A stretch of 64,000 bases of DNA from assembly GCA_902798975.1 (NCBI GenBank), contig CADBYT010000005.1:124001-188000 (forward strand). The letters are read 5' to 3'. This DNA comes from an uncultured Bacteroidia bacterium (lineage in GTDB: Bacteria > Bacteroidota > Bacteroidia > Bacteroidales > UBA932). The notes under the pieces were generated by a model. The model made no database searches and was not told the origin of the DNA. It saw only the letters and a program-made list of their open reading frames with translations. Below, one piece after another: positions 14,528 through 29,862 of this stretch. Within the stretch, counting starts at the first letter, position 1. The number at the start of each line of letters is the position of its first letter. A program made the translations under genes and the position numbers.

Positions 14528-15733
14528 ATGAAAAAGTCTATCATCTTCTTTCTGACGCTGGCGGCACTGGTCGTGTCCGCCGTCCCTGCCCGTGCGGCTT
14601 CCCCGTTGCAGACCCCGCCGCCCGAGCAGATCTGGGCCTTCTTTGTCGCGCTGCCTGACGCGAATCTGCCGAAAGGCATCAACACGCGCGCCGAGCGCGA
14701 GGCGTTCAACAAGGCGTATCATGATCAGCTGGCGGAGATTGCCGAGTTGCAGAATCAGGAAGACGGAGAGGAGTTTTTCTATGGGGACTACATAGAGGAA
14801 ATCGATCGTCAGCTCTATTGGAACCCTACTACCCTGGATGCCGGCTGGATGCAGGATGTGGCCGAGGACCTGACGGAAGAGAACGGTCCTATGCCGTCCA
14901 TTGAATTCGACGTGTTCCCCGGTTCGGATCCGGACAAGATCTTCGGCATGCTGGAAGTGCGGGAATTCACTGCCGGCGAATCCAAAGTGGTGGGTACGTA
15001 TAATTACTGGTATTCCATTTCCCAGAACAAGGTCACGAGCGTGAGCCTGCCGCTGGACGTCCCTTATACGGATGACGAGATTACGGACGACGGTCTGTAT
15101 CTCTACAACCAGAACGAACTCTACTGGGCCATGCGCGACCGCAAGTTCACCTGGCTGGCCGACCAGGATCGCATTATCCTGATCCTGGAAGGCATCGGCT
15201 GCGTGCCGGTGTGCTACGATTGGAACGGCACGAAGTTCGTGCGCAACCGGAACTACAGCCCGCTGTCGGCATACGTCAATGGCATCGGCCCGATCAGCAT
15301 CAACGCAAGCATTCCTTTCGGCGTCCACGGTTATGATGTAGAATGGCTTGACCAGGAGGAAGATAATGTGCGCGCCTGGCAGTTCGTCAAGAACGGAGAG
15401 AGCGATCCGCGCATCATCGTTTACGCTTACGGAGACGCTTACGCTCCCGCGACGATCGACGCCATCGACATCCTCTATCCGAACTACCCGTTGTATGAGA
15501 AGATTCATGTAGGCATGCCCGCAACCGAGGCCATGGAAGCCCTCAAGGAGATTTATTCTTATCTCGATGAGGAAATCAAGCCGTATGTGTCCGCCTTCGA
15601 CGGCAAGGCCTGGATCTTCTCCGGCCAGGACGATCCGTTCATGCTCGGCGTGGATCTCAAGTACTACAAGAACGACAAGCTCACCCCGGACGCCAAGATT
15701 TCCGTCGTCCGCATTGCTCCCGCGGTCGGTTAG
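14528..15733 (+). CDS. Exported protein of unknown function, 401 aa
   Basis: MKKSIIFFLTLAALVVSAVPARA is a classical signal peptide with an AxA cleavage site. The mature part is acidic and aromatic-rich (repeated Y, W, D and E) without motifs I recognise, no lipobox and no membrane segment, so it is probably periplasmic or secreted. Many paired acidic residues near aromatic ones could bind metal or sugar, but this is speculation. The next small gene follows after 32 bases. Confidence 0.8.
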   Translation: MKKSIIFFLTLAALVVSAVPARAASPLQTPPPEQIWAFFVALPDANLPKGINTRAEREAFNKAYHDQLAEIAELQNQEDGEEFFYGDYIEEIDRQLYWNPTTLDAGWMQDVAEDLTEENGPMPSIEFDVFPGSDPDKIFGMLEVREFTAGESKVVGTYNYWYSISQNKVTSVSLPLDVPYTDDEITDDGLYLYNQNELYWAMRDRKFTWLADQDRIILILEGIGCVPVCYDWNGTKFVRNRNYSPLSAYVNGIGPISINASIPFGVHGYDVEWLDQEEDNVRAWQFVKNGESDPRIIVYAYGDAYAPATIDAIDILYPNYPLYEKIHVGMPATEAMEALKEIYSYLDEEIKPYVSAFDGKAWIFSGQDDPFMLGVDLKYYKNDKLTPDAKISVVRIAPAVG

Positions 15734-15765
15734 TCCGTCAAACCATTATTAACCTTGAAATAATT

Positions 15766-16098
15766 ATGCTGGAACTAGAGAAATCCTTCCGCAAGGAAGA
15801 CATCCAGGAGCCCATCGAAGCCTCCTTCGAGCCCGCCGTCAACAAGACGCGGATCGAGTCCTACAACGCCGACCTGCTCGTCACCGCCACCAAGGTGTAC
15901 CTGCTGCCGAAGTACAAGGAAGATCAGGACCGTTACAACCCCATCTGCATCGAGATCTCCGAGATCGCGGGATGCAAGAAGTATGGTCTGTTCGGATTCG
16001 GCTTCGAATTCGCGGACGGATCCAAGCAGCTCTTCTCCAACGTCGGCAAGAAGATGCGCACCGGCATTACCGAGGCCATCGAAGCCCGGAAGAAGTAG
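15766..16098 (+). CDS. Small cytoplasmic protein of unknown function, 110 aa
   Basis: No signal peptide or membrane segment. The sequence has alternating strands and a Gly-rich turn (CKKYGLFGFGFEFADGSKQLFSNVGKKMR) followed by a C-terminal helix, a layout compatible with a PH/GRAM-like domain, though this is only a shape-based guess. Codon use and start match its neighbours. It is followed by strong palindromes and a terminator. Confidence 0.75.
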   Translation: MLELEKSFRKEDIQEPIEASFEPAVNKTRIESYNADLLVTATKVYLLPKYKEDQDRYNPICIEISEIAGCKKYGLFGFGFEFADGSKQLFSNVGKKMRTGITEAIEARKK

Positions 16099-16206
16099 GA
16101 CAGCTGACGCTGTCCCGAAAGAGTGGTTATTTACGGGACAACCCCCTCGAAATTGAAGGGGTTGTCCCGTTTTTATAGGGTAAAACGGGACGGGAATTCC
16201 CGTTTT
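16098..16206. repeat. Cluster of three palindromes sharing GGAC/GGGAC, upstream of the RAYT gene
   Basis: (1) GGACAGC-TGAC-GCTGTCC (16098-16115), starting on the stop codon. (2) ACGGGACAACCCC (16133-16145) paired with GGGGTTGTCCCGT (16158-16170). (3) AAAACGGG (16182-16189) paired with CCCGTTTT (16199-16206), containing the perfect CGGGAATTCCCG. A further unpaired GGGACG follows near 16246. Their density next to a RAYT gene fits a REP cluster. Confidence 0.7.
16133..16176 (+). terminator. Rho-independent terminator
   Basis: Perfect 13-base arms (ACGGGACAACCCC / GGGGTTGTCCCGT) with a 12-base loop and TTTTTA immediately after. It should end transcription of the two unknown genes upstream. Confidence 0.75.
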
Positions 16207-16303
16207 AACATTCTAGAAACTGAAAGATTTCACAAAATGTGACGAGCGGGACGAATAACCTTGATTTAACGACGGAGCCATATTATCTTCCCAGAAAAAA
16301 GAC

Positions 16304-17188
16304 ATGAGAAATCCCGTCCCACATTATTACCACTGTGCAACCAAAGGCTTCGACCATAGCATCCTGTTTGCCGACACCCGGGAATTCATTGCCGGCATGA
16401 ACCGGATTGGTATCTGTCAAGCCCGCTTACAGGAGGAGAAAGTAATTGTCATTGCCTTCTGCCTGATGGACAACCATGTCCATATCATCATGTATGGGAC
16501 TCGGGAAGCTTGTCTCAAGTGGATGGCCTTGTATCACCGACTGACCATGATCTGGCAGGGGAAGCATCGAGACGGTGCCCCTGTCAACGAAGAATGGGAG
16601 TATGACGCTTGGCAAATATACGACACCGAGGACTTGAAAGAGAAGATTGCCTATGTCTTCCGAAACCCGACCGTGGCACGGATGAGTTATGTCCCAAACG
16701 GTTATCGCTGGAGTTCCGCTCCACTTGTCTTTGCAGATTCCTCGGCACAAACCATCGGCGGGAAGAAGGTGGGTTTGCTCTCAATCTACGAGAGCCGGAA
16801 ACTATTTGAGACAAGGGCTATTCTTCCGGAAGACTGGATTGTGTTGCCAGACAACATGATCTGGCCGGGATGTTATACAGACTCAAAAAGAGTAGAAAAG
16901 CTTTTTGGGCATCCACGCGCTTTCCTGTTCTTCTTGAATCAAAACGTAGAAGCAGATATCAATCAGGAGATGTATCAAGGGAGCCTTTCTCTTCCCGATG
17001 CGGATGTCATTCAAATGGCAAAAGAACAATCTGTCAAGTTATTTGGGACCGATGTTGTCAGCTCTCTGGATCTCACGTCGCGCATCCAGCTTTGCAAGGT
17101 GGTTAAGAAAAAATCCGGCACCAGTCTGAAGCAGTTGGCCAGGATTGTTCAGGTTCCGCTAGCTGAATTAAAGAAGATATTCGGGTAG
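16304..17188 (+). CDS. REP-associated tyrosine transposase-like protein (RAYT, Y1/HUH family), 294 aa
   Basis: HUH single-strand nuclease of the IS200-like Y1 superfamily. The metal-binding pair is H58-V-H60 in FCLMDNHVHIIMYG; the candidate nucleophile is Y117 in AYVFRNPTVARMSYVP followed by GYRWSS, the RAYT pattern. The C-terminal 40 residues (GTSLKQLARIVQVPLAELKKIF) form a helix-turn-helix-like tail, shared in style with the second copy at 55595. RAYTs cut and join REP palindromes and are usually single, non-insertion-sequence genes; no IS ends are seen here. AT richness is slightly higher than in neighbouring genes. Confidence 0.88.
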   Translation: MRNPVPHYYHCATKGFDHSILFADTREFIAGMNRIGICQARLQEEKVIVIAFCLMDNHVHIIMYGTREACLKWMALYHRLTMIWQGKHRDGAPVNEEWEYDAWQIYDTEDLKEKIAYVFRNPTVARMSYVPNGYRWSSAPLVFADSSAQTIGGKKVGLLSIYESRKLFETRAILPEDWIVLPDNMIWPGCYTDSKRVEKLFGHPRAFLFFLNQNVEADINQEMYQGSLSLPDADVIQMAKEQSVKLFGTDVVSSLDLTSRIQLCKVVKKKSGTSLKQLARIVQVPLAELKKIFG

Positions 17189-17227
17189 ATTTTTCTTCCT
17201 GTTATCATCTGAATATCAACTTTTTTA

Positions 17228-17235
17228 TATATTTG
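17228..17235 (+). promoter_or_regulatory. -7 element TATATTTG, distal promoter
   Basis: Full TAnnTTTG match 240 bases upstream of the response-regulator ATG and just after the RAYT stop. It could drive a long leader or a separate small RNA. No clear -33 box. Confidence 0.45.
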
Positions 17236-17242
17236 CAAAAAA

Positions 17243-17428
17243 CACTAAAACACCCAGGATGCCCGTTCTGACCACATACCGGCACCCGAAGGCCATCTCC
17301 TTATATTCTCCGAGGTGGTTGGTTGTTTCTTGTAAATACCTGAATTTTAATCAAGTGTAAAGTGATATGAGTAGGGTGAATTCCCCGTAGAGCCTATGAG
17401 GTTCGGGAATGGAGTTAATTTTACGTTT
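17243..17428 (+). ncRNA. Candidate structured leader or small RNA
   Basis: Between the two -7 elements lies about 190 bases without an open frame. Near its 3' end, ATTCCC (17380-17385), GAGCC (17390-17394), GGTTC (17400-17404) and GGGAAT (17405-17410) form one 11-pair stem with a four-base bulge and the loop TATGA, followed by a T8 run at about 17425. It matches no RNA family I know. Whether it is separate from the operon is undecided. Confidence 0.3.
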
Positions 17429-17436
17429 TTTTTACG

Positions 17437-17444
17437 TAATTTTG
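17437..17444 (+). promoter_or_regulatory. -7 element TAATTTTG, proximal promoter of the six-gene operon
   Basis: Full TAnnTTTG match 31 bases before the ATG at 17476. A -33 box is not distinct. Confidence 0.45.
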
Positions 17445-17475
17445 AAGAATATACAAGCAAACAATTTTAAATACG

Positions 17476-18642
17476 ATGGCCGTAAAAATACTGAGTGTCG
17501 ATGACGAGACCGATCTCGAATTGTTGTTGACGCAATTCTTCCGTAGAAAAATCAGAAAAGGTGAGTATGAGTTCTACTTCGCCCACAATGGACTTGAGGC
17601 GCTGCAGTTTCTCCTGAAGTACCCGGACATTTCCATCATCCTGTCAGACATCAACATGCCTGAGATGGACGGTCTGACACTGCTTGCCAAGATCAATGAG
17701 ATGCGCGTCCCGTCCCGGAAGTGCATCATGGTGAGCGCATACGGAGATATGGACAACATTCGCCACGCCATGAACGGCGGTGCTTTCGATTTCGCCACCA
17801 AACCGATCGACCTGGATGACCTCCAGCTTACCATCGACAAGGCGGTCGAGCAGATCGAGTACATCAAGAGCGCTCAGAAGGAGCACGCCGAACTGGTGGA
17901 TATCCAGAGCGATCTGTCCGTGGCCCGCGAGATCCAGCAAGGTATCCTGCCCCGCAGTTTCGATCTGAAGAAGCTGCCGGATGCCGGCGCCGTCGATATC
18001 TTTGCCAGCATGGATGCAGCCAAGGACGTAGGCGGCGATTTCTACGACCTCTTCCCGATCGATGACCATCGGATCGGATTCGCCATCGCCGATGTGAGCG
18101 GCAAGGGTGTGCCTGCGGCCATCTTCATGGCGGTGAGCCACACGCTCATCAAGGCTACGGGCATCCGCGACCTGGCGTCGAACGAATGTATGGAAACGGT
18201 CAACAACATCCTGTGCAATGAAAGCGTGGGTTCCATGTTCGTGACCGTATTCTATGGTATTTACGACTTGCAGACCGGAGCGGTCGATTATACCAATGCC
18301 GGCCATAATCCACCGTATATCCTGCATGCCGACGGCTCGGTCGAGATGTTGAAGAACGACGGTAACCTGGTACTCGGCGCAGTGGAGGATATGAAGTTTA
18401 AACGCCAGTCGCTGCTGCTGAACCCCGGCGACGCGCTCGTGATGTACACGGACGGCGTGACCGAGGCTGAGAATATGGAACACGCCCAGTTCGGAGAGTC
18501 CCGTCTGGAGGCAGTGCTGGCCGAGCTGAAAGGGGCCCCCAGCAGGAAGATTGTCGAAACAATCAATGCCAGGATCCGCGAATTCACGGACGGCGCCCCT
18601 CAGAGTGACGATATAACCCAATTAGTAATCCGCAGAAAGTGA
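17476..18642 (+). CDS. Response regulator with PP2C/SpoIIE-type serine phosphatase output, 388 aa
   Basis: Residues 1-120 are a receiver domain with the acidic pocket (VDDETD), phosphoacceptor D58 in ILSDINMPEMDG and the conserved K in ATKPIDLDD. A short coiled linker (QKEHAELVDIQSDLSVAREIQQGILPRSF) leads to an RsbU/SpoIIE phosphatase with metal-binding motifs DVGGDFYDLF, IADVSGKGVPAAIFMA and the C-terminal PQSDDITQLVIR. Phosphorylation presumably switches dephosphorylation of a serine/threonine-phosphorylated partner. No anti-anti-sigma factor or switch kinase is encoded nearby, so its substrate is unknown. First gene of the operon; its stop overlaps the next start (GTGA). Confidence 0.93.
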   Translation: MAVKILSVDDETDLELLLTQFFRRKIRKGEYEFYFAHNGLEALQFLLKYPDISIILSDINMPEMDGLTLLAKINEMRVPSRKCIMVSAYGDMDNIRHAMNGGAFDFATKPIDLDDLQLTIDKAVEQIEYIKSAQKEHAELVDIQSDLSVAREIQQGILPRSFDLKKLPDAGAVDIFASMDAAKDVGGDFYDLFPIDDHRIGFAIADVSGKGVPAAIFMAVSHTLIKATGIRDLASNECMETVNNILCNESVGSMFVTVFYGIYDLQTGAVDYTNAGHNPPYILHADGSVEMLKNDGNLVLGAVEDMKFKRQSLLLNPGDALVMYTDGVTEAENMEHAQFGESRLEAVLAELKGAPSRKIVETINARIREFTDGAPQSDDITQLVIRRK

Positions 18643-20297
18643 AACGCCGTTCCATTCTATTGATCGCATTGACGGCACTGGTGGTGGTCACCGGTGTGGC
18701 GATGGTCGCCTATCGCATGGGCAGCAAGCATTCCCGGAGCGAACTCACTGCGCTGCAGGAGGAGATGGACCGCCTGCTGGCCGCTGAGAAGGATGCGGCG
18801 ATCGTGAAGCGGGTCAGCCAGCAGATGGAGGATATTGCCTATCAGCAGAAAGCCATATCCGACCAGCAGCGCGACCGTGCCGAAGAGCAGTCTGTCCTGG
18901 CTACCCGGAATGCCGCCCGCGCGGAAATGGAGAGCCGGGCCGCCCGCGAAGCGGAAAGCAAGGCGAACGCCGCGGCCGACGTGGCCGAGCGGGAGCGTGC
19001 CAACGCCGAACGGCAGCAGGAAATCGCCCTGGAGCAGCGCGACGAGGCGAACCATGCGAAAAACGTGGCCGATACTTTGAACCGCCGCACCCAGGCCCGG
19101 AGCCTGGCGGCGAGTTCGCTGGTCCGGCGTGAAGCCAATGATCCCGAGGTGGCCGACCTGCTGGCGTACGCCAGCTGGTATTTCCTCAAGAACAACCGGG
19201 GGAACACCTATTATTCCGAAACCTTCAAATCCCTGACCGAGGCCACGGACGGCATCCCGCGCTACAAATTCAAGGAGAACAGTTCCGTGAATGCCATCGC
19301 CCAGGTGCCCGGCAGCCCCGGTGAATGTGTGGCGGTGACGAATTACGGCGAAGTGGAATGGCTTCGCGCAAGCGGGACATCCGGGGATATCCGGATCACT
19401 TCCCAGAGCCTGCTCTTCAACTCTGCATATGATTTCCGGGATGTGACGGTCCAGGGAGGGAAGATCTTCGCGCTGTCCCATGACGGGCCTCTCTGCGAAC
19501 TGGACTTCAAGGGGAAAATGACCGCCGTGGCCCTGCCCGATGATGATTACTTCAAATTGATTCCGTCAGGCGATCGTCTGCTCGTGGCGGCACGCCGGAG
19601 CCTTGGCTGGTATGCCGGCGGTGCACTGTCGGGCCGCGTGAGCCTGGATAAACCCCTGTCGACGGTGGTGGACCGGAACGGAATCATCTGCCTCTTTTAC
19701 GCGGACGGTTCGTATGCTGAGATGGATGCCGCGGGCCGGATTACGGAGAAGGCCCCGCTGCTGGACGAGGTGGTTACCGCTGCCTTCTACGACAAATCCA
19801 GCGGATGCCTGCTGCTGGGCGTGAAGGACGGTACGGTCTATCCCGTCAACAAGTACAACCGCGTGATAGAGACCCTGGCGGCCCACAAGTCGCGCTGCAT
19901 GAGCATCACGATGCTCGATCCCGTCATCATTACCGGTGGTTATGACAAGAAGGCCTTTATCTGGAGCATGGACAACCTGATGTTCGAGAGCGGCCTGAAC
20001 TTCCAGGGCGAACTGGAGGCGGAAAGCGTAGGGAAAAGGGTGGTGAACAGCAAGGAGATTCCGACGGAATGGCTGGTGCCCGTGGATTATACCTTCGATG
20101 GCTGGACGCTTTCCGTGTGCAGTGACGCAGACGGGAAGTCCGTGTGGATCGGCACCTCCTCCGGTTATGTCTCGCTGCTGAATTCTTCGGCTGATGACAT
20201 GGCGCAGCAGCTGAATCGTAAAATCAAACGTAACCTGACCCAACAGGAATGGACCCGCTACGTCGGCGTGTCCATCCCCTATATGACGTTCAAATGA
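18639..20297 (+). CDS. Membrane-anchored coiled-coil protein with beta-propeller-like C-terminus, 552 aa
   Basis: The start is GTG, four bases inside the upstream stop. One transmembrane segment (ILLIALTALVVVTGVAMVAY) is followed by a long Ala/Glu/Arg coiled coil (about residues 35-160) and then strand-rich repeats resembling a WD40-type propeller (CMSITMLDPVIITGGYDKKAFIWSMD split over the repeat). This layout recalls the periplasmic or cytoplasmic platforms of signalling complexes. Orientation is unclear. It may scaffold the phosphatase encoded before it and the sensor after it. The 3' end overlaps the next gene by ATGA. Confidence 0.75.
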   Translation: MKRRSILLIALTALVVVTGVAMVAYRMGSKHSRSELTALQEEMDRLLAAEKDAAIVKRVSQQMEDIAYQQKAISDQQRDRAEEQSVLATRNAARAEMESRAAREAESKANAAADVAERERANAERQQEIALEQRDEANHAKNVADTLNRRTQARSLAASSLVRREANDPEVADLLAYASWYFLKNNRGNTYYSETFKSLTEATDGIPRYKFKENSSVNAIAQVPGSPGECVAVTNYGEVEWLRASGTSGDIRITSQSLLFNSAYDFRDVTVQGGKIFALSHDGPLCELDFKGKMTAVALPDDDYFKLIPSGDRLLVAARRSLGWYAGGALSGRVSLDKPLSTVVDRNGIICLFYADGSYAEMDAAGRITEKAPLLDEVVTAAFYDKSSGCLLLGVKDGTVYPVNKYNRVIETLAAHKSRCMSITMLDPVIITGGYDKKAFIWSMDNLMFESGLNFQGELEAESVGKRVVNSKEIPTEWLVPVDYTFDGWTLSVCSDADGKSVWIGTSSGYVSLLNSSADDMAQQLNRKIKRNLTQQEWTRYVGVSIPYMTFK

Positions 20298-22864
20298 GAA
20301 GTTTTCCGTGTCATATCGTTCTGATGGCCACCGTGATGCTTTTCACGTTGCCGGCCGTCGCGCAGAACGCCTATATGGGCGTGCCGTTCTTCCAGAACTA
20401 TCCGGCCAGTCAGTACAATGCCCACAACCGCAACTTCGACGTGATCTGTGACGGCGAGGGGCATACCTTCTTTGCGAACTTCGAAGGCCTGCTGGTCTAT
20501 GACAACGTTGAATGGAGGATTGTCCATACGCCCGACATCTCCCGCGTGGTGAGTGTGGGCATGGAGGAGGACGGAACCATTTTCTTCGAGGGTATCAACC
20601 AAACGGGCCGGGTCCTGGGCATGGCAGGGGATTCCATCCGCGTGGAATATTCCTCGGGTGTTGCCCGTGACGCCCGGGTACTCTCCGGCGGCGAACGGAC
20701 CCGCGAGGATGCGGTGGACCGCTGGAATGAGATCGAAGTTTACCAGCGACTCAGGCTGGACAGGAACCGTACGCTGCTGGCAACGGCGACCGAAGGCGTG
20801 ATCGCGGTCGATGCCCAGGACAGGGAAGTCTGGCGGGTCAATGTCGATAACGGTCTCTGCTCCAACAGTATAACCAAACTTTCCTACGACGGCAAGGGAA
20901 CGGTCTGGGGGGCTACGGACAACGGTGTTTTCCGCCTCTCGGTTTCCGAAATCTATACCCATTTCACGGAGAAAGAAGGCCTGCGGGGACAGATTTCCTG
21001 CATCGCCTTGAGCGGTGCCGACCTGATGGTGGGCACCTTCCAGGGCCTGTATCGCCTGGACGGGCAGCGCTTCCTCCCGGTGGGCCGGATCAATCATGCC
21101 TGCTGGCAGATCGCCCAGGGGGATGGCGGCCGCGTGTACGTGGCCACTTCGGATGGCGTCTATGAATATGCCGCCGGGGCCGCACGCCAGTTGACCGACC
21201 AGTTCGCCATCTCCATCGAAGCCCTCCCCGACGGCTCCTTCCTGGTCGGTGAACTCGAGGGCGTCAGACGTTTCCGCCCCGGCAGGGGGAACACCACGGT
21301 CGGCGATATTCCCAATGTCACCCGTTTCAAGCAGGATGCGCGCGGCGGTGTCTGGGCGATGACCCTGGCGGGCGACAACTACTATATGGCTGCCGGCAGC
21401 TGGCGCTTCGAGAAGCGGGAAGAAGGACCTTTCTCCCCCTTGTTCGAATACGAAGACAAGGACGGCCACCTGTGGCGCAGCTATGACAACGGCATGGGCA
21501 TCAGCTTCGACGGTATGCCGGACGAGTTGAAGCCCTGGTTCGAACCGTTCTCTGACTTCAATGTGCAGGCCATGCTGGTGGACGGGGGACTGGTCTGGAT
21601 CGGTGACAACGACGAGGTGGTCCGCTTCGATATGGATGGATGCCGGACGGCCGAGCGTTTCGCACCCCTGTTGTATTTCCGCAGTTTCAAAAAGGGCAGC
21701 GGTGACCTGTCCATCAGTTTCTCCAACGACAAACTCGATCCCTTCGGACAGGTGCGGTACAGCTACCGCCTGCGCCACGACAATGCCTGGTCTGATTGGA
21801 GTGATCAGCAGGAATACCTGTTCGCCAACCTCAGCTACGGATCCTATCAGGTGAGCGTCCGATCGATAGACGCCTTCGGGCAACTGAGCGAGGTCGGACC
21901 GCTCGAATTCCGTCGGCCGTACCCGGTATTTGTGCGCTGGTATGCGCTGCTGGTGTACGTACTCCTCATCGTGTTCCTGGTCTATCAGTTGTTCAAGTAC
22001 CGCATGCGCCGTATGGCCGAGGAACAGCAGCGGCTGGAGAACATCGTGGACGAGCGTACCCGCGAGTTGCGGCAGGCCCAGGATAAACTGCTGCGCCAGG
22101 AGCGGGAGGCTGCCATCGGTAAGCTGACCAAGGGCCTGATCGACCGTATCCTCAACCCGATGAACTACATCAACAATTTCGCGCACCTGACCCTCGGTAT
22201 GTCGAAGGAGATGCGGGAAAATGTTGAAGATGAGAAAGATAACATCTCGACGGAAGTCTATGAGGATTCCATGGACATCATGGATATGATGACGACGAAC
22301 CTGGAGAAGATCGAACAGCATGGACTCTCCACGACCCGCACGCTCAAGGCGATGGAGGAGATGCTGAAGGAGCGCTCCCGGAAGTTCGAAGCCACCGACC
22401 TGGCTGCATTGTGCCAGCAGGCTGTCGAGAAGTTCAAAACCTACTATGCCGACGATATCGCTGCGCTGGGGATCCAGGTGGAATGCTCCCGTCCTGACGC
22501 GCCCGTCATGCGGAATGTCGTGGCCGACCAGATCAGCAAGTCCATCCAGTCGATGCTCTCGAACAGCATGTACGCCATCAGGAAGAAGGCGGAAAAGGAC
22601 AGCTACAGCCCCGTTCTCCGCGTTACCGTCTCGCAGGAGCCGGCGGATGGCCATGTGTTTATCAGGATTTACGACAACGGTATCGGAATCGAGGAGAGCA
22701 TCCTGGGCAAGATCTTCGACCCGTTCTTTACCACCAAGCCCACGGCCGAGGCCCCGGGCGTGGGTCTTTATCTTACCCAGCAGGTCCTGCATGACTGCGG
22801 CGGCACGGTGACAGTGCAATCCGTGAAAGGTGAATATTCGGAATTCATCATAAACTTGGCTTAA
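20294..22864 (+). CDS. Membrane sensor: periplasmic propeller, Y_Y_Y domain, TM, degenerate histidine-kinase core, 856 aa
   Basis: Signal peptide MRSFPCHIVLMATVMLFTLPAVAQ; then reg-prop-like propeller repeats (DGKGTVWGATDNGVFRL), a Y_Y_Y domain before the membrane (YRLRHDNAWSDWSDQ, YGSYQVSVRSIDAFGQ), one TM at about 546-570, a coiled coil and a kinase core. This is the front half of hybrid two-component systems of Bacteroidota without receiver or AraC output. The H-box reads KGLIDRILNPMN: the phospho-accepting His is replaced by D617 and the next Glu by R618. The ATP-lid region is preserved (DNGIGIEESILGKIFDPFFTT, GVGLYLTQQVL). It may bind ATP and act on the neighbouring kinase. Start chosen at the ATGA overlap, 15 codons into a longer frame. 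Confidence 0.88.
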   Translation: MRSFPCHIVLMATVMLFTLPAVAQNAYMGVPFFQNYPASQYNAHNRNFDVICDGEGHTFFANFEGLLVYDNVEWRIVHTPDISRVVSVGMEEDGTIFFEGINQTGRVLGMAGDSIRVEYSSGVARDARVLSGGERTREDAVDRWNEIEVYQRLRLDRNRTLLATATEGVIAVDAQDREVWRVNVDNGLCSNSITKLSYDGKGTVWGATDNGVFRLSVSEIYTHFTEKEGLRGQISCIALSGADLMVGTFQGLYRLDGQRFLPVGRINHACWQIAQGDGGRVYVATSDGVYEYAAGAARQLTDQFAISIEALPDGSFLVGELEGVRRFRPGRGNTTVGDIPNVTRFKQDARGGVWAMTLAGDNYYMAAGSWRFEKREEGPFSPLFEYEDKDGHLWRSYDNGMGISFDGMPDELKPWFEPFSDFNVQAMLVDGGLVWIGDNDEVVRFDMDGCRTAERFAPLLYFRSFKKGSGDLSISFSNDKLDPFGQVRYSYRLRHDNAWSDWSDQQEYLFANLSYGSYQVSVRSIDAFGQLSEVGPLEFRRPYPVFVRWYALLVYVLLIVFLVYQLFKYRMRRMAEEQQRLENIVDERTRELRQAQDKLLRQEREAAIGKLTKGLIDRILNPMNYINNFAHLTLGMSKEMRENVEDEKDNISTEVYEDSMDIMDMMTTNLEKIEQHGLSTTRTLKAMEEMLKERSRKFEATDLAALCQQAVEKFKTYYADDIAALGIQVECSRPDAPVMRNVVADQISKSIQSMLSNSMYAIRKKAEKDSYSPVLRVTVSQEPADGHVFIRIYDNGIGIEESILGKIFDPFFTTKPTAEAPGVGLYLTQQVLHDCGGTVTVQSVKGEYSEFIINLA

Positions 22865-22876
22865 GGAAAAAGTTTT

Positions 22877-23740
22877 ATGGAAGAGCAATTAGAAGGATTG
22901 AAACAACAGGTTGCCTATCTGCAGGAGCAACTGAACCGGCAGGAGAAAATGGCTTCCCTGGGTCTGCTCAGTGCAGGCATCGCCCATGAAATACAGAACC
23001 CGCTGAATTTTGTGATCAATTTCAGTAAGATGTCTGTCAAGTTGCTGGAGGACCTCCGGGAGATCGTGGAGGATTGTGCGGAGAAACTGGGTGAGGACGA
23101 TGCCGCCGATATCCAGGACATTTCGGCGGACCTTGGCGAGAATCTCCAGAAGATCCAGGAGCATGGTGAGCGGGCCATCAGCATCATCCGTGGCATCCTG
23201 CTGCAGAGCCGCGGCAAAGCCGGCGAGAAGCTGCCGACCGATGTGGGGCAACTGGTGCACGAGTACGTATGGCTCAGCTATCATGCCATGCGCGCCAACG
23301 ACAAAAGTTTCAACATCACAATCCGGGAAGAGATCCAGGAAGATATGCCCAAATTCATGGTTATTCCGCAGGACCTCAGCCGGGCCGTGCTCAATGTCAT
23401 GAACAATGCCTGCTACACGGTCAAGGAACGGGCCGGCCTGGAGGGTGGCGATTACACGCCCACCATCACGGTGAAGGTTGCCATGGACCGTAACGGCGCC
23501 GATGAGGCCGAGATCCGGGTGGACATCACGGATAACGGCATGGGCATGACCCCCGAAGTCAAAGAAAAGATCTTCGAGAATTTCTTCACCACGAAGCCGG
23601 CCGGCGAGGGAACAGGCCTGGGCATGAGCATCACCTACGATGTCATCACCAGGAACCATGGCGGCCAACTGCTTGTGGAGACGGCGCCGAAAGTCGGCTC
23701 CACCTTTACGTTTATCATTCCTGCAAAGATCGTAAAATGA
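22877..23740 (+). CDS. Soluble histidine kinase, 287 aa
   Basis: A coiled-coil N-terminus (MEEQLEGLKQQVAYLQEQL) leads directly into a complete kinase core: H-box SAGIAHEIQNPLNF with H37, N-box VMNNACYTVKE, G1 DITDNGMGMTPE, F-box FENFFTTKP and G2 EGTGLGMSI. No membrane segment or sensor domain, so the input probably comes from the degenerate kinase in the preceding gene, whose H-box region is homologous. The likely phospho-target is the receiver at 17476. It ends in the ATGA start of the TonB receptor gene. Confidence 0.92.
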   Translation: MEEQLEGLKQQVAYLQEQLNRQEKMASLGLLSAGIAHEIQNPLNFVINFSKMSVKLLEDLREIVEDCAEKLGEDDAADIQDISADLGENLQKIQEHGERAISIIRGILLQSRGKAGEKLPTDVGQLVHEYVWLSYHAMRANDKSFNITIREEIQEDMPKFMVIPQDLSRAVLNVMNNACYTVKERAGLEGGDYTPTITVKVAMDRNGADEAEIRVDITDNGMGMTPEVKEKIFENFFTTKPAGEGTGLGMSITYDVITRNHGGQLLVETAPKVGSTFTFIIPAKIVK

Positions 23741-26097
23741 GAATCAAGAGCTTCATATTCGTACTTTTCCTATTAGGGGGCTTCTCTTGTGCCGTCCGTG
23801 CGCAGGATGGTACGCACCGGTATGAGTCTGCCCTGGAGGCGTACGAGCTGGGCTTGTTTGAAAAAGCTGACACCCTCCTGGCCGGCTCGGTGAACGATTT
23901 TCACGGAGAAGACAGGATCGGCGTGTATCGGCTGCTTGCCCTGTGCAACCTGAATATGGATAAGCCCGAGGTAGCCGAGGCGTGGGTGACCCGGCTTCTC
24001 GCGGTCGATCCCTACTACCGGGTATATAATGACGTGCCGCGTTTCACTGACATGGTGAACCGTCTCCGCGCCGGCAAGTCGGCGACGATTACGACGGCAT
24101 CCCAGCAGTCGGAGTCCATCGAGGAGGCCCCTGTCCCCGTGACATTGATCACGGAAGAGATGATCAGTATGAGCGGTGCGCGCAACCTGAAGGAAGTGTT
24201 GACCACCTATGTGCCCGGCATGTCCCACATCGAGTGCAACGAAGAGATGAATATTGCGATGCGCGGTGTCTATGCGAGCCGGCAGGAGAAGATCCTCATC
24301 ATGTTGAACGGTCACCGCCTGAACAGCTATTCGACCAACGTGGCGGCTCCGGATTTCAGCATCAGCCTCGAAAAAGTGAAGCAGATAGAGGTCCTGCGGG
24401 GGCCTGCCGCTTCGCTGTACGGCGGCGTGGCTTTGACCAGTGTGATCAATGTCATTACCAAAGATGCCGCCGACGTCGACGGATTGAAGGTCAAGGCGAG
24501 TGTCGGCAACTTCGGCCAGCTGAAGGGAGACCTGCTGTTCGGCAAGCGGTACATGAACCTTTCGATATTGGCATGGGCCGACATCTACCGCTCTGTTGGC
24601 GAGTCCTATCAGGTTGGCTACGATGACCAGCCCTACGCCCTGATTCCGAACCCCGGCACCATCACCATCGGAGGCTACAACCACCAACCGTCGCACGATG
24701 TGGGCATGACGCTGCGCTGGGAGGACCTGACGTTCACCTTCAACAATACCTTCTCCAAGACGGTGGCCCCTTACTCGATGAGCATGATGTTTACCGCATA
24801 CGATTATGACAAGTTCGGGGTGTTCAACGGAAACAAGCCGGGTTTCGGGACTTTGTCCAACTATCTCGACCTGAAGTACGAGAAGACAATCGGAAACTGG
24901 GGCCTGTCCGCCAGCATCAGCTATGACACGGCCAAACAGCAGCAGTATCAGGTGGCCGGCGATCTTACCATGGTGGGCTATTACCTGATACCGACAGCCA
25001 CAGTCGACACGGTCTATACGGGCGACGCTGTCTTCCAGAACCATATATGGGGCGAGCATACGTTGGGCGGCCATCTCCAGGGGAGTTACAGCAATAAGTG
25101 GGGGAAACACGACATCGTCGCCCTCCTGGGCGCGCACGCCGGCAGGATGGACCTGGAATACAGCTACTATGAGGAAGGCGACGAATTCAACCGGGTACTG
25201 AAAGTCTGGGACGAGTCCAAAAACCTGATGGTGAACCATGAGGTGAATATGGACGTCTATTTCCAGATGAAATACAAATGGAACGACGTGTTCATCGTCA
25301 ACGCCGGCGCCCGGTACGACTTCAAGCGACGGTATGACCTCCTGAAAGACAGTCACGAGAATATCCATGTGCTGTCCCCGCGTGTCGCCTTTATCCTCAA
25401 TCTGCCCAAAGTGGCAGCCAAGCTCTCTTACTCGAAGTCGTTCGTGGATGCTCCCTACTTCTACCGGAACGGCCGCTTTGACACCTCCTGGGGAGGCGGG
25501 CTCGATCCCGAATACCTGCACTCGTTCCAGGCTTCCGTTTCCCTGAATGACGTGGTGAAGAATCTCGGCGCAGAACTGAATGTCTTCTACAACATGTTCG
25601 ACAACCTGGTGTATTATGATGCCGGGTCGTTGATTTATCTCAACGGCGGTAAATTGAAGAACTTCGGTACGGAGCTATCGCTCCATTACACTGGAAAGAA
25701 GTTCCAGGCGGAATGCAACCTCACCTGGCAACGCGTCCTCGATGCCGAACGCTATCAGTATGCGATGGGCAATAATATGTCGAATATTCCTGCATTCATG
25801 TCGAATGTGGTGCTTCAATATGAAATACTGAAAGGCTTGAAGGTCCACACCCATCTGACCTGCTTCGGCCGCCAGTTTTCTCAGACCACGAACTGGTTTA
25901 CCTATGAGATCACCGAGCATGAACTTCCCGGCCGCGTCATCGTGGATCTGGGTGTCAACTATGGCTACAAGAATTTCGGCATAGGGCTCAATTGCCATAA
26001 TCTGTTGAATACCAGATACGAGCAAGGCGGTGTCTCTACCGGTTTCATCCGGCAGCAGGGACGTTGGCTGATGGCGGAAATCTCATATAAATTCTAA
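23737..26097 (+). CDS. TonB-dependent receptor with TPR-like N-terminal domain, 786 aa
   Basis: Signal peptide MRIKSFIFVLFLLGGFSCAVRAQ. Residues about 25-115 are TPR-like helices (YESALEAYELGLFEKADTLL, LLALCNLNMDKPEVAEAWVTRLL) in place of the usual regulatory domain. A TonB box-like stretch (EEAPVPVTLITEEMIS) and plug follow (NLKEVLTTYVPGM, VEVLRGPAASLYGG-type motif IEVLRGPAASLYGGVALTS), then a 22-strand-type barrel ending in MAEISYKF with terminal Phe. Ligand unknown; no SusD partner. Located between the kinase and the NRPS-like enzyme, it may take up the product of that enzyme or its metal complex. Confidence 0.92.
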   Translation: MRIKSFIFVLFLLGGFSCAVRAQDGTHRYESALEAYELGLFEKADTLLAGSVNDFHGEDRIGVYRLLALCNLNMDKPEVAEAWVTRLLAVDPYYRVYNDVPRFTDMVNRLRAGKSATITTASQQSESIEEAPVPVTLITEEMISMSGARNLKEVLTTYVPGMSHIECNEEMNIAMRGVYASRQEKILIMLNGHRLNSYSTNVAAPDFSISLEKVKQIEVLRGPAASLYGGVALTSVINVITKDAADVDGLKVKASVGNFGQLKGDLLFGKRYMNLSILAWADIYRSVGESYQVGYDDQPYALIPNPGTITIGGYNHQPSHDVGMTLRWEDLTFTFNNTFSKTVAPYSMSMMFTAYDYDKFGVFNGNKPGFGTLSNYLDLKYEKTIGNWGLSASISYDTAKQQQYQVAGDLTMVGYYLIPTATVDTVYTGDAVFQNHIWGEHTLGGHLQGSYSNKWGKHDIVALLGAHAGRMDLEYSYYEEGDEFNRVLKVWDESKNLMVNHEVNMDVYFQMKYKWNDVFIVNAGARYDFKRRYDLLKDSHENIHVLSPRVAFILNLPKVAAKLSYSKSFVDAPYFYRNGRFDTSWGGGLDPEYLHSFQASVSLNDVVKNLGAELNVFYNMFDNLVYYDAGSLIYLNGGKLKNFGTELSLHYTGKKFQAECNLTWQRVLDAERYQYAMGNNMSNIPAFMSNVVLQYEILKGLKVHTHLTCFGRQFSQTTNWFTYEITEHELPGRVIVDLGVNYGYKNFGIGLNCHNLLNTRYEQGGVSTGFIRQQGRWLMAEISYKF

Positions 26098-26102
26098 AGT
26101 AT

Positions 26103-28610
26103 ATGATGTACCAAAACTATACTCATCTTGACGTCTGGAACCATATCCGGGAAAGCGTGGAACAAGTGCCTGACAAGGCGGCTGTCCGAGTAGGGGAGAA
26201 CTGTCTTAGCTACCGGGACCTGTTCCTGTTTGCGGACCGCTTCGCATCGGGCATACAGGATTTCCTCTCCCGGGCAGACTGGAAAAAGGGTATTCCCGTC
26301 CGTATCGGCGTCTTTGTCCGCCGCAATGAGCGTCTGGAGGCTTCGATCCTCAGCATTATCAAACTTGGTTGCACCTATGTGCCCATCGATACGGAAACCC
26401 CGGTCGAGCGGGTCGCCTTCATTGCCGAAGACGCATCGCTGGCTTTCTTCCTGACTGAGGAAGCGGTTATGGATCGATTGCCTCAGGGTGTTCCGACGCT
26501 GACTGTCGAAGAGATACTGCGGAAAGAGCCCCGGGAAATCACCGCGGACTACTCGACGGATGACAATGAGGCATATTTCATCTTCACGTCCGGCACGACC
26601 GGAAGGCCCAAAGGCGTGCGGATCAATTATACCAATCTCTATTATTTCCTGCTCACCTGCATGCGGGAAGATAATTTTCATTTTCATCGCGACTCCGTCG
26701 TCCTTCACTATACGAGCATCAACTTCGATGTCTCCGTCCTCGAACTCTACAATGCTTTGTTCAATGGTGCGACGCTTGTCGTCGTCAATGAAGAGGAGAG
26801 GAAGGATGTAAAGAAGGTGTACCAAATCATCAACAAGTGGAAAGTGACTTTCATGTTCCTGCCGCCCACGATGTTCAACCTCTTTACGGAGTTTAATTTC
26901 ACCGCTATGGAGACCGCTTGCACAGGCGGTGAGGCCATGCCCCGCTCGTTGGCGGAACGTATTGGGAAACGTCCCTACCGTTTCATCAACGGCTACGGTC
27001 CGGCCGAATGCACACCGATTTCCTCCATGCGCGACGTCTTGAGCCCCGACTTGTATCGTAATATCGGGTGGGCCTCCCCTTATGGCACTTTTGTGGTGGT
27101 AGACGAGCAGATGCAACCGGTCCGGCCCGGTGAAGAGGGAGAGCTCCTCATCGGTGGCCCGCAGGTCTTCAGCGGCTACCTGAACAGACCGGAACTCACG
27201 AAAGAGAAACTGATTGACAATCCTTTCGAGGAAACCCGGGAAAAAGCGCCGAAGCTCTATCATACCGGAGACATCGTACGTCTTTGTGAGGATGGTAGCT
27301 GCGAATTTGTGGGAAGAAGGGATTCCCAGGTAAAGCTGTACAGCCACCGCATCGAAATGGGAGAAATCCTTGTCCAGATTGAGAAATGCAAGGAGGTCCG
27401 TGGCGCCTATGTCCGGATTGAAGAGACCGGGTCCAACAAACACATCGTGGCTTTCATCCAGCCGAAAGATCCGGAAGTTTGCCAGTCCAACGAGGCGATC
27501 ATCGACACCATCGACAAGATCAAAAAGCAGATTCGTGTCGAGCTTCCCGACTACATGATTCCCACCATGTGGAATTTCGTTCCTAAATTCCCGATTACCA
27601 TAAACGGGAAGATTGACGGGAAAATGCTTGTGAACAAGCCTTTCCACTATATTGAGGTTGACGATGAAGGGTCCCTGACCAGCGATGAAAGGATCCTGAA
27701 GCAGGAGTTGTGCAGGGTGATGGAATTTGACAATATCTCCATCCATGAAGACTTGTTTGAAGTCTATGGCCTTTCCTCCATCCAGACTATGCAGGTCTCT
27801 GTGGACCTCAACCGCATGGGCATGCAGGTGTCGGCACTTGAGATGTATAAGTATCGCACGATACACGAAATCATCAAGCACCGGGATGCACGGCTGAACT
27901 ACTGGTATAACGACGGTGATGATACGCAAAAGCCTGTCATCGTCGTCATCAGCGGCTATACTTCTTTCGGCAACATGTACACGCAGATGGCCGATCGTCT
28001 CACGGATAAATTCTCCATCTATGTGGTGGATTATTATCACGCCATCCTGGATAACAGGAGGTTGGATGACCTGGAGGAACTGATGGCCATCTACCGGGAG
28101 ATGGTGGCGCCCGTGGTCGCCAGACACCGGATCTGTTGCTTCATGGGTATTTGCCTGGGCGGAGAACAGGCATTGCTGCTCGCCCATCAGTTATATGCCG
28201 GTCAGGCTGAAAAACCGCATGTCACCGTCATCGATGGCGAGGTGGACCGGGATACTCGCCGCGAGACCAATGGCCACCTGCACTTCGCTTTCCTTTCAGA
28301 GGAGGAGAACGCCGTGCGCATTGACAATGATTTCACCTTGATGGAAACCTTCCCTGATTTCCATTATGAAGGGAAACTGTCCGTCTTCCTCTCCGGGGAA
28401 TATGTAGCTTACGAGTCCTGGTTCGATCCCGATTGGACGGAGGTGAAGGCGACCGCCTTGCGCCGCGCCTTCGATACCAACCGCGAAAGATGGGAGAGGC
28501 GCTATCCGGATTGCTACATTGGCGTCATGCCCTCCGATCACGCCAATTTCTGGAATTCGGAACCTTCCCTTACCATCCTTACCGACTATTTCAAGGATTC
28601 GTTGGACTGA
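26103..28610 (+). CDS. Single-module NRPS-like enzyme: adenylation, carrier protein, thioesterase (835 aa)
   Basis: Adenylation domain (about 1-515) with A3 FTSGTTGRPKG, A4 INFDVSVLELYNAL, A5 NGYGPAE, A7 YHTGD, A8 and A10 NGKIDGK. D209 of FDVS corresponds to the Asp that binds the alpha-amino group in amino-acid-activating domains. The carrier (about 530-590) has S559 in YGLSSIQTM as the phosphopantetheine site. The C-terminal alpha/beta-hydrolase (about 600-835) has the nucleophile elbow GICLGG with C684 in place of Ser, and SDHANF as a likely catalytic His. There is no condensation domain, so the product is presumably a released, cyclised or dimerised single amino acid. By-eye specificity code DVLFCGGPIK matches no code I know. 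No phosphopantetheinyl transferase gene is nearby. Confidence 0.92.
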   Translation: MMYQNYTHLDVWNHIRESVEQVPDKAAVRVGENCLSYRDLFLFADRFASGIQDFLSRADWKKGIPVRIGVFVRRNERLEASILSIIKLGCTYVPIDTETPVERVAFIAEDASLAFFLTEEAVMDRLPQGVPTLTVEEILRKEPREITADYSTDDNEAYFIFTSGTTGRPKGVRINYTNLYYFLLTCMREDNFHFHRDSVVLHYTSINFDVSVLELYNALFNGATLVVVNEEERKDVKKVYQIINKWKVTFMFLPPTMFNLFTEFNFTAMETACTGGEAMPRSLAERIGKRPYRFINGYGPAECTPISSMRDVLSPDLYRNIGWASPYGTFVVVDEQMQPVRPGEEGELLIGGPQVFSGYLNRPELTKEKLIDNPFEETREKAPKLYHTGDIVRLCEDGSCEFVGRRDSQVKLYSHRIEMGEILVQIEKCKEVRGAYVRIEETGSNKHIVAFIQPKDPEVCQSNEAIIDTIDKIKKQIRVELPDYMIPTMWNFVPKFPITINGKIDGKMLVNKPFHYIEVDDEGSLTSDERILKQELCRVMEFDNISIHEDLFEVYGLSSIQTMQVSVDLNRMGMQVSALEMYKYRTIHEIIKHRDARLNYWYNDGDDTQKPVIVVISGYTSFGNMYTQMADRLTDKFSIYVVDYYHAILDNRRLDDLEELMAIYREMVAPVVARHRICCFMGICLGGEQALLLAHQLYAGQAEKPHVTVIDGEVDRDTRRETNGHLHFAFLSEEENAVRIDNDFTLMETFPDFHYEGKLSVFLSGEYVAYESWFDPDWTEVKATALRRAFDTNRERWERRYPDCYIGVMPSDHANFWNSEPSLTILTDYFKDSLD

Positions 28611-28623
28611 TTCCCTGAATCGA

Positions 28624-29862
28624 TTATCGCCTTTCGCTTGTCAGATCGCTGTTGTAGATGACCCGGCGGGCGGCCTGGTTGATGCGGGCGGGCTCTTCGC
28701 TGAAGCGGAAGTCCGCCTGCAATCCTTTTTCGCCGTACTCGGCGAGCTTCTTGTGCCACTGGCGTCCGTACTTGGAGCACATCGTGACGAAGTAGTGCGT
28801 GGTGTCGTAGCCCTGGAAGGCAAAGGAGCCGGGTTCGCCCTGGAAGAGCGCCCGGTAGGCCAGGATGAAACTGCGGACGGCCGGATCGTCGTAATCGATG
28901 AAATAGGACAGCGTCAGGTGGGCTTCCGTGTTGTGGAGGTCGGTCTGGGCGATGCCGTTCATGCGCATGCGGGAGGTACCGTAGAGAATCACGTCATTGT
29001 TGCGCGCTCCCTCGATGCTCATGCTGCGGACGACGGTCGTGACGAAGTTGTCCCGCTCGGAGGCGATGGCTACACGCGCCTTCTGGCCTTTCTTGAAGGG
29101 GATTTCCGTGGCGGACAGCACACTCTGGTAGCGGATGCCGCGGGCCTGCAGCTGCTCGATGAAATAGGCGCTCTGCCCGTCCTGGATCAGGGCCGTGCTG
29201 TCCCGCACGACATAGAGGACATCCCCGATGGGGAGATCCTCGCGTATCCAGCGGACCAGTTCGTCCACCTGGGCGTTCCAGCCGGAGGGGGCCTGGACGA
29301 CGGGGCCGGCGGCAGCCAGCGCGGTGGCCTTGGGCTCGAGCGGGGAGATCAGCACCTTGCCGGTGCACAGAGCCGCGGAGTTCTCAAGTTCTTCGTAAGA
29401 GACAGGGCCGATGATTACGTCGTTCTCGTCGATGAGGGATTGCGGAATGGCCGTCTTGTCGTCGGCACAGTCATAGACCTGCAGGTTGGCCTTCACGCCG
29501 GCGGAGCCCAGCTCGCGCAGGGCCAGCAGGGCGCCGCTGTAGAAGTCGAGGAAGTTCTCGCTGGGCTTCTGCGCGGAAGCCTGCAGCGGCAGGGCGAGTC
29601 CGATGTGGATTACGTCCGGAATATCCAGCATATAGACATCTTCCCGCGCGGCGGTCTCGGCGCCGAGGCTGTCCGCCAGGGCGAGGGAGTCCTGCTGCGC
29701 CTGGGCTTCCTGCTTCAGGAGGCTGTCCCGGAACGCCGTCATGGATTCGGTCGGTTTCTCGGTCTGCTGCTGTTTCTTTTTGCCGGGGAACAGGTACCAC
29801 TGTGCGCAGGCGTTGAACGACAGCGCGCAGATGAGGAGGGCGAAGATGCTGAATTTCTTCAT
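28624..29862 (-). CDS. Periplasmic-binding-protein-like exported protein, 412 aa
   Basis: Signal peptide with a lipobox-like end (MKKFSIFALLICALSFNAC). A Gln/Lys/Ser-rich linker of about 70 residues is followed by a type-1 periplasmic-binding fold resembling Leu/Ile/Val-binding proteins (IHIGLALPLQ, VIIGPVSYEELENSAAL, VILYGTSRMRMNG, FAFQGYDTTHYFV). In Bacteroidota such proteins are often joined to LysM cell-wall domains; none is present. No ABC transporter is adjacent, so a structural or sensing role is as likely as transport. Transcribed with the glycosyltransferase upstream (seven-base gap); convergent with the NRPS-like gene. Confidence 0.8.
   Translation of the reverse strand: MKKFSIFALLICALSFNACAQWYLFPGKKKQQQTEKPTESMTAFRDSLLKQEAQAQQDSLALADSLGAETAAREDVYMLDIPDVIHIGLALPLQASAQKPSENFLDFYSGALLALRELGSAGVKANLQVYDCADDKTAIPQSLIDENDVIIGPVSYEELENSAALCTGKVLISPLEPKATALAAAGPVVQAPSGWNAQVDELVRWIREDLPIGDVLYVVRDSTALIQDGQSAYFIEQLQARGIRYQSVLSATEIPFKKGQKARVAIASERDNFVTTVVRSMSIEGARNNDVILYGTSRMRMNGIAQTDLHNTEAHLTLSYFIDYDDPAVRSFILAYRALFQGEPGSFAFQGYDTTHYFVTMCSKYGRQWHKKLAEYGEKGLQADFRFSEEPARINQAARRVIYNSDLTSERR

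Follow-up and report, generated by a model that had tools for sequence, protein, structure and literature searches.

The window analysed here, a stretch of 64,000 nucleotides from a draft genome (2.09 Mb, 71% complete, 39 contigs) of an uncultured Bacteroidia bacterium, contains an operon of six + strand genes that occupies positions 17476-28610 in the list of open reading frames (ORFs) and joins a phospho-signalling pathway to a TonB-dependent receptor and a single-module enzyme of the non-ribosomal peptide synthetase (NRPS) type, built of adenylation, thiolation and thioesterase domains (A-T-TE). The genes, called g1 to g6, and the parts of them that are treated separately are the following.

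17476..18642, + strand: g1, receiver domain fused to a PP2C/SpoIIE phosphatase, 388 amino acids (aa), the proposed output
18639..20297, + strand: g2, 552 aa, with an N-terminal hydrophobic stretch, a coiled-coil-like part and a propeller-like C-terminal half
20294..22864, + strand: g3, sensor with propeller repeat, Y_Y_Y and a degenerate kinase without phospho-acceptor His
22877..23740, + strand: g4, soluble histidine kinase, 287 aa, phospho-acceptor His kept
23737..26097, + strand: g5, TonB-dependent receptor, 786 aa
23806..24078, + strand: N-terminal TPR-like helical domain of g5, about residues 24-114, which evolves with the signalling genes
24118..26094, + strand: plug (residues 128-233) and barrel (241-786) of g5, the allele-specific half as judged from identities, trees and plug alignment
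26103..28610, + strand: g6, single-module A-T-TE enzyme, 835 aa, with Ser559 and Cys684/Asp711/His813
24157..28640, no strand assigned: exchange block (plug, barrel and g6), left edge at about 24,157, right edge at 28,610-28,680

At the g1/g2 junction the DNA reads GTGA, a 4-base overlap at 18639; g4 and g5 overlap in an ATGA at 23737, a 12-base gap separates g3 from g4, and 5 bases separate g5 from g6. The ORF of g3 opens at 20249, the first possible start, from which g2 and g3 would overlap by 49 bases; its true start is probably 20294, as the ATGA overlap there suggests. Coordinates and junction letters thus agree with an earlier note on this DNA, which had described six genes on one strand with GTGA or ATGA overlaps or gaps of 5-12 bases, and protein families and structural models agree with the identities and the order that it gave (phosphatase, coiled-coil/propeller protein, sensor, kinase, receptor, A-T-TE enzyme). 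Scans of 15,700-29,000 for promoters (7 promoter-like sites versus 7.7 expected) and terminators (15 terminator-like sites versus 11.7 expected) were uninformative.

The first four genes make up the signalling part of the operon. In Pfam, g1 matched Response_reg (3.5e-20) and SpoIIE (1.5e-51), and its best match among solved structures was 3eq2, a two-component response regulator; it is 79-93% identical to g1 of the other six-gene loci described below and supplies the PP2C (SpoIIE/RsbU) phosphatase that marks a partner-switching system. For g2, which is 69-81% identical among these loci, Pfam returned weak beta-propeller matches and nothing else, its hydrophobic and coiled-coil parts being judged by eye from the sequence. 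The sensor g3 matched HATPase_c, Y_Y_Y and, below cut-off, Reg_prop, and has lost the phospho-acceptor His in 12 of 12 sequences read (H-box GLIDRILNP), while g4 (HisKA 4e-8, HATPase_c 1e-20) has kept it, as AHE or SHE, in all 12 of its sequences. Fused g4-like kinases are present in genus g22.

The receptor g5 carries Plug (8e-16) as its sole Pfam family at 0.1, and a model of its residues 1-245 matches TonB receptors in PDB, such as CirA, BtuB, FhuA and FpvA, so that both the family match and the fold matches of the plug place it among TonB-dependent transporters with a plug in an outer-membrane barrel. The same model, with a mean pLDDT (predicted local distance difference test) of 70.0 and a predicted template-modelling score of 0.41, shows five helices in residues 4-114, followed by a linker (residues 115-132) with pLDDT under 50. 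The receptor had been called TPR-fronted, and its N-terminus is helical and TPR-like in this model of middling quality; Pfam gave no TPR match there, and the best 50 rows of the fold search with residues 1-245 were TonB receptors, i.e. the plug. Nor was a secretin/TonB N-terminal (STN) signalling domain found in g5, where Plug alone matched at 0.1 and the N-terminus models as helices.

The enzyme g6 matched AMP-binding (1.4e-65) and PP-binding (9.1e-8), with AMP-binding_C just below cut-off. Its adenylation domain retains Asp235 and Lys517 in 10 of 10 sequences (GrsA numbering), and the carrier Ser559 and the thioesterase triad Cys684, Asp711 and His813 are invariant in 11 of 11, as is expected of an NRPS-like A-T-TE enzyme. 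Loading of the thiolation domain needs a phosphopantetheinyl transferase, a domain of which was present in all six carrier genomes searched. The thioesterase part (residues 596-835) had no Pfam family at 0.1; its AlphaFold model (pLDDT 85.8, 12 input sequences) matches the NRPS and polyketide synthase thioesterases Vlm2, NocB, GbnD6 and ObiF1 in PDB with a Foldseek E of about 1e-8, and its nucleophile is Cys in 12 of 12 aligned sequences. In this it is like SulM and ObiF1, the latter ranking sixth among its fold matches, in which, according to PMC11298585, Cys replaces Ser as the nucleophile of the terminal thioesterase. The Cys suggested a beta-lactone- or lactam-forming thioesterase, and the acid argues against it: unlike that of SulM and ObiF, Asp711 is not shifted and follows the strand right after that of the nucleophile, the usual position I in the same paper. 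On the model, therefore, beta-lactone or lactam formation is not predicted. A plasmid-borne enzyme was also rejected, as the 1,947 matching plasmid records were all under 60% identity, the ten listed being at 24-35%.

When 300 genomes of the same genus were searched with g6, with at most 3 candidates scored in each, 8 of them had a full-length match: the window's genome, G175 at 85% identity and six genomes at 39-41%. One of the 8 has the operon split over two contigs; beyond these carriers no match in the 300 genomes extended past query residue 698. With g2, the same genomes gave matches of at least 69% in exactly the same 8, plus one at 34%. A full-length enzyme was seen in none of 148 other genomes of a family sample and, at E≤1e-110 with 2 candidates scored, in none of 383 other genomes of an order sample. 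The genome searches score 2-6 candidates per genome, and such absences are therefore no proof. A g4 search of 299 genomes of the family added loci in a second genus, where L118, L119 and L121 (our labels for loci) have all six genes and L120 is cut by a contig end inside g5. The six genes stand in one order in all ten uncut loci (window, L051-L056, L118, L119 and L121), and L069/L057, split by a contig break, and the cut loci L030, L031 and L120 agree as far as read; a g1-like match of L057, which is another gene, was left out of the counts. These loci lie in six surroundings (window/L052/L053; L051/L031; L054/L055; L056/L069+L057; L118/L119; L120/L121/L030) without a common flanking reading frame (6 kb on each side, E≤1e-25, at least 40% identity), which rules against chance neighbours. 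The adjacency of all six homologues, which the earlier note had proposed to check, is thus found in every uncut locus, with no full-length g6 elsewhere in the samples. Its view of the operon as one linked unit is supported, the enzyme being unseen away from the signalling genes in 8 of 8 carriers, though not in a strict sense, since the other five genes also occur without it.

Upstream of the operon (14528-15733 and 16304-17188 of the window), a gene is flipped relative to a RecN-like gene in comparison with L052/L053, to whose counterpart it is only 54-56% identical, and a REP-type transposase-like ORF upstream of the window's operon has no match in L052/L053.

Comparison of these loci revealed that the operon is a mosaic. 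The window, L052 and L053 have the same flanking genes on either side and hence lie at the same site, and g1-g4 of the window are 93, 81, 84 and 88% identical to those of L052 and 90, 81, 83 and 86% to those of L053, whereas identity is 43% for the receptor barrel and 40-41% for the enzyme. L051, at another site, has g1-g4 at 84, 74, 73 and 80%, with the barrel at 84% and the enzyme at 85%. Two alleles therefore lie on one backbone, with barrels about 43% and enzymes about 40% identical between types:

Type A, barrel and enzyme: window, L051, L031, L030
Type B, barrel and enzyme: L052-L057, L118, L119, L121

The edges of the exchanged part can be read in the DNA. In 300-base steps, identity between window and L053 is 78-89% over 17,601-24,500, with one step of 71%, then 51-62% from about 24,500 to 28,700 and 71-92% thereafter; the right edge is a climb from 55% to 95% over 28,601-28,720, just past the g6 stop at 28,610. 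On the left, the window agrees with L053 only at 64 sites and with L051 only at 34 sites in 23,737-24,156, and the corresponding counts in 24,157-24,696 are 34 and 108. The nearest relative thus switches at about 24,157, where the plug begins, and the divergence deepens from about 24,460. The second genus repeats the pattern: L120 (type A) and L121 (type B) are 89-94% identical in g1-g4, 89% in the TPR-like part and 82% in the plug, and only 46% in the barrel. Identity falls here from about 420 bases into g5 onwards, a place that matches the one in the window. A downstream flank is also common to L121, of type B, and L030, whose enzyme is of type A. Conversely, L118 and L119 are 91-95% identical in g1-g4 and 99-100% from plug to enzyme; in DNA profiles a block from the barrel to past the enzyme (L118:11913-16500) is 97-100% identical versus 83-94% in the rest of the operon, a recent exchange.

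Phylogenies led to the same picture. In a seven-locus tree of g1-g4 the window groups with L052/L053 (100/100), and its union with L051 is rejected by the approximately unbiased (AU) test (p 7e-5), while in trees of g5 residues 1-240, barrel and enzyme it groups with L051, and the union of window, L052 and L053 is rejected (AU p 0.02, 3e-7 and 2e-45, respectively). These trees are without L118-L121, and L122, L067, L068 and L084 were left out of all trees. The signalling tree, which includes L120 and L069 (typed by its other contig, L057), needs three changes of barrel type, and barrel type equals enzyme type in 13 of the 13 loci where both were read. Among the ten uncut loci (the cut L030, L031 and L120 and the split L069/L057 being excluded), barrel distances correlate with those of the adenylation domain at 0.98 and with those of g1-g3 at 0.17; for the TPR-like part the values are 0.79 with g1-g3 and 0.25 with the barrel, and its tree pairs the loci as the signalling tree does. 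Receptor and synthetase hence co-vary beyond the genomic background given by g1-g4, with a weak contrast within type B. Since its TPR part tracks the signalling genes and its plug and barrel track the enzyme, the receptor looks chimaeric, one part inherited with the kinases and the other with the enzyme. Thus, we conclude that the plug-barrel and the A-T-TE enzyme are a co-inherited unit, in two alleles, exchanged as a block, and that g1-g4 with the TPR-like domain are a conserved, co-inherited backbone.

Joint exchange of receptor and enzyme, with the signalling genes staying, is what would be expected of a receptor whose ligand is made by this very enzyme. We therefore propose, giving it an even chance of being right, a self-sensing, lock-and-key operon, whose enzyme would make an aminoacyl-derived ligand that fits the barrel beside it and is sensed through the TPR-like domain, the kinases and the PP2C phosphatase. 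In this scheme g6 would load one amino acid and its cysteine thioesterase would free a small product, which may differ between type A and type B enzymes. The product, or a compound derived from it, would leave the cell and become the ligand of the barrel encoded beside g6; its binding, or TonB-driven movement, would alter the periplasmic TPR-like domain, which would touch extracytoplasmic parts of g3 and possibly of g2. The sensor g3, an ATPase without a phospho-acceptor of its own, would work with g4, whose His would phosphorylate the g1 receiver, and g1 would then dephosphorylate a STAS antagonist and so switch an RsbW-like kinase or anti-regulator. For the substrate, the pocket letters of the adenylation domain presumably point to a hydrophobic amino acid; they read DVLFCGGPIK (window and L051), DVIFCGCPIK (L031) and DMNTCGAPWK (L030) in type A and DVIFSGGIVK, DVLFSGGIVK, DALFSGGVVK and DALFSGAVVK in type B.

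Several observations weigh against a self-sensing operon. There is no exporter among the six genes, and a product of one amino acid is small for a TonB receptor. The type A enzyme of L030 (856-3357) is 81% identical to that of the window, yet 5 of the 10 positions of its inferred pocket are different, which hints at another substrate, so that allele type need not equal product. Among the 8 loci of type B, taken by themselves, the contrast is weak (0.85 between barrel and adenylation domain, 0.81 between barrel and g1-g3, 0.85 between TPR part and g1-g3), and the thiolation-thioesterase half follows neither the adenylation domain (0.48) nor the barrel (0.55) well. The tree of the TPR part (115 columns) joins the window to L052/L053 at a support of 46/25 only, and in that of g5 1-240, which covers both TPR and plug, the window pairs with L051 (98/99). 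The L118/L119 block starts later than that of the window, about 780 bases into g5, and extends about 550 bases past g6. All loci come from draft genomes, L029-L031 being metagenome-assembled, and L122 of the second genus has g1-g4 and a divergent g5 cut by a contig end, with no g6 seen. Finally, neighbouring genes can be exchanged jointly by linkage alone.

This last point carries the strongest alternative, which we nevertheless consider unlikely: phages, bacteriocins or competition for nutrients would select for exchange of the barrel, and the enzyme would hitch-hike without making the ligand. As g6 lies only 5 bases from g5, linkage alone could carry it, and both the reach of the L118/L119 block past g6 and the poor tracking of the barrel by the thiolation-thioesterase half within type B fit such a history. 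Selection on the barrel only, however, does not predict an enzyme as diverged between types as the barrel itself (40% versus 43%), and the full agreement of barrel and enzyme types, the right edge just past the g6 stop in window/L053 and the lack of a full-length g6 outside the operon in the samples searched speak against hitch-hiking as well.

It is improbable, in our estimate, that the product is a metallophore or siderophore that scavenges, with the receptor importing the loaded form and the pathway controlling scarcity genes. Receptors for siderophores and colicins feature prominently in the plug fold matches, and the NCBIfam family that g5 matches best is TonB-siderophor, though far below its cut-off (95.7 versus 223.5 bits); an enzyme of one module without a condensation domain and the lack of any siderophore-tailoring family among the nine proteins scanned (those of the operon and beside it) speak against it. 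Its model would be pyoverdine, for which PMC11734721 describes synthetase and receptor as matched pairs in lock-key co-variation. The pyoverdine NRPS with FpvA cell-surface signalling in Pseudomonas is also the nearest working analogue of the whole operon. By that paper and by PMC9249621, in which the extra N-terminal periplasmic domain of cell-surface-signalling receptors acts on an anti-sigma regulatory protein, the two share a co-varying synthetase and TonB receptor and a receptor with an additional N-terminal domain. The operon differs in the TPR-like nature of this domain, in its single A-T-TE module and in the proposed relay from histidine kinase to receiver-PP2C in place of a FecR-type anti-sigma factor acting on an extracytoplasmic function (ECF) sigma factor. 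Neither a FecR-type anti-sigma nor an ECF sigma gene was found among the nine proteins; together with the absence of STN from them, this places the operon outside the FecA/FpvA class of cell-surface signalling.

The core of the operon also occurs without the enzyme, which is a further point against the self-sensing operon: L068, from another genus of the family, and L084, from another family of the order, have g1-g5 alone, and L067 has g2-g5, g1 lying beyond the contig end, followed by an alpha-L-rhamnosidase (GH78-type). The enzyme is therefore not obligatory for the core. Probably the five receptor-signalling genes are the older part and the enzyme joined them later. With a nitroreductase after the receptor in L084 and an opposite-strand gene in L068, this variation would suit a core that senses an environmental ligand, a foreign nutrient, which would be processed after uptake by the product of the distal gene, the A-T-TE enzyme here and the rhamnosidase in L067. 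We regard this as highly improbable, as Asp235 and Lys517 are kept throughout and an A-T-TE module activates free amino acids and does not degrade imported polymers. A SusC/SusD nutrient locus was dismissed, no SusD or carboxypeptidase-like family being present among the nine proteins scanned, as was a defence system, since none of the six genes had a PADLOC match at 1e-10. In L068 (365-9142) a VKOR-like gene, a C39-peptidase ABC exporter and a second ABC protein are encoded divergently from the core, along with genes that look HlyD- and TolC-like by eye; such a set would suit an exported peptide, and in L068 this peptide might be where the ligand comes from. A third genus contributed eight genomes (L123-L130), in whose fetched stretch only relatives of the g3 kinase part, g4 and g1 were found, with no receptor, g2 or enzyme.

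Returning to the output of the proposed self-sensing pathway, the phosphatase had been taken to act by partner switching, and there is some evidence for this step. Directly upstream of g1 in L051, on the same strand, lie the genes of a STAS protein and a Cache-SpoIIE-HATPase_c_2 protein, and separate STAS and RsbW-like genes lie near the relatives in L084 and L085. On the opposing side, no STAS or RsbW gene was found in the stretch searched of the nine remaining uncut loci with six genes, among them the window, and the window's genome has a Cache-SpoIIE-RsbW fusion and a STAS gene on another contig; with adjacency in one of ten uncut loci only, support for the output step is lowered. The pathway thus resembles the RsbU/RsbV/RsbW system in its receiver-SpoIIE protein (a response-regulator PP2C like 3eq2) and in the STAS and HATPase_c_2 genes beside or near it in these three loci, and it is unlike that system in being apparently driven by a TonB receptor, with sensor and kinase split, and in having its partners unlinked in the window and eight other six-gene loci. 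In L085 a single sensor kinase retains its His, and the stretch read contains no separate g4; g3 and g4 may hence have arisen by duplication, with loss of the acceptor His from the membrane copy. Elsewhere in the genus (L114:1-7930 in G175 and L115:3651-12123 in G435), a pair of a SpoIIE-RsbW fusion and a STAS gene is divergent beside an NRPS of about 1,990 aa, a second association of NRPS and partner switch.

Single adenylation-thiolation modules with a release domain have been tied to signalling elsewhere, in PvfC, the valdiazen enzyme, which ends in a reductase, and in RalA, the ralfuranone A-T-TE synthetase; we know of no TonB receptor in either system. RalA-type adenylation domains take keto acids, and this furanone/quinone class (RalA/atromentin) is not known to have Asp at position 235, whereas g6 keeps it in 10 of 10 sequences, and we therefore rejected the class for g6. 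Our literature search found, for the terms used, no paper on a TonB receptor combined with a receiver-PP2C protein, and none that describes such an operon in its title or at the start of its abstract, in line with the earlier note, whose author knew of no described system of the same composition.

A broader reading, which we put forward tentatively and hold to be rather less than probable, is that the operon serves self-recognition (quorum or kin sensing) of a new class in Bacteroidales, the TonB receptor being a pheromone receptor, the plug-barrel and the pheromone-making enzyme a swappable cassette that sets specificity and comes in at least two alleles, and the TPR-like domain an adaptor that leads to the phosphorelay and partner switching. 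If the self-sensing operon is right, it would provide a defined pair of outer-membrane receptor and ligand enzyme with natural allelic swaps, so that specificity would be directly testable by exchanging the 4.5 kb block. It would also link TonB receptors to a receiver-PP2C pathway, and searching for the receptor barrel that co-varies with them could be a way to find out what small NRPS-like enzymes produce in gut Bacteroidales.

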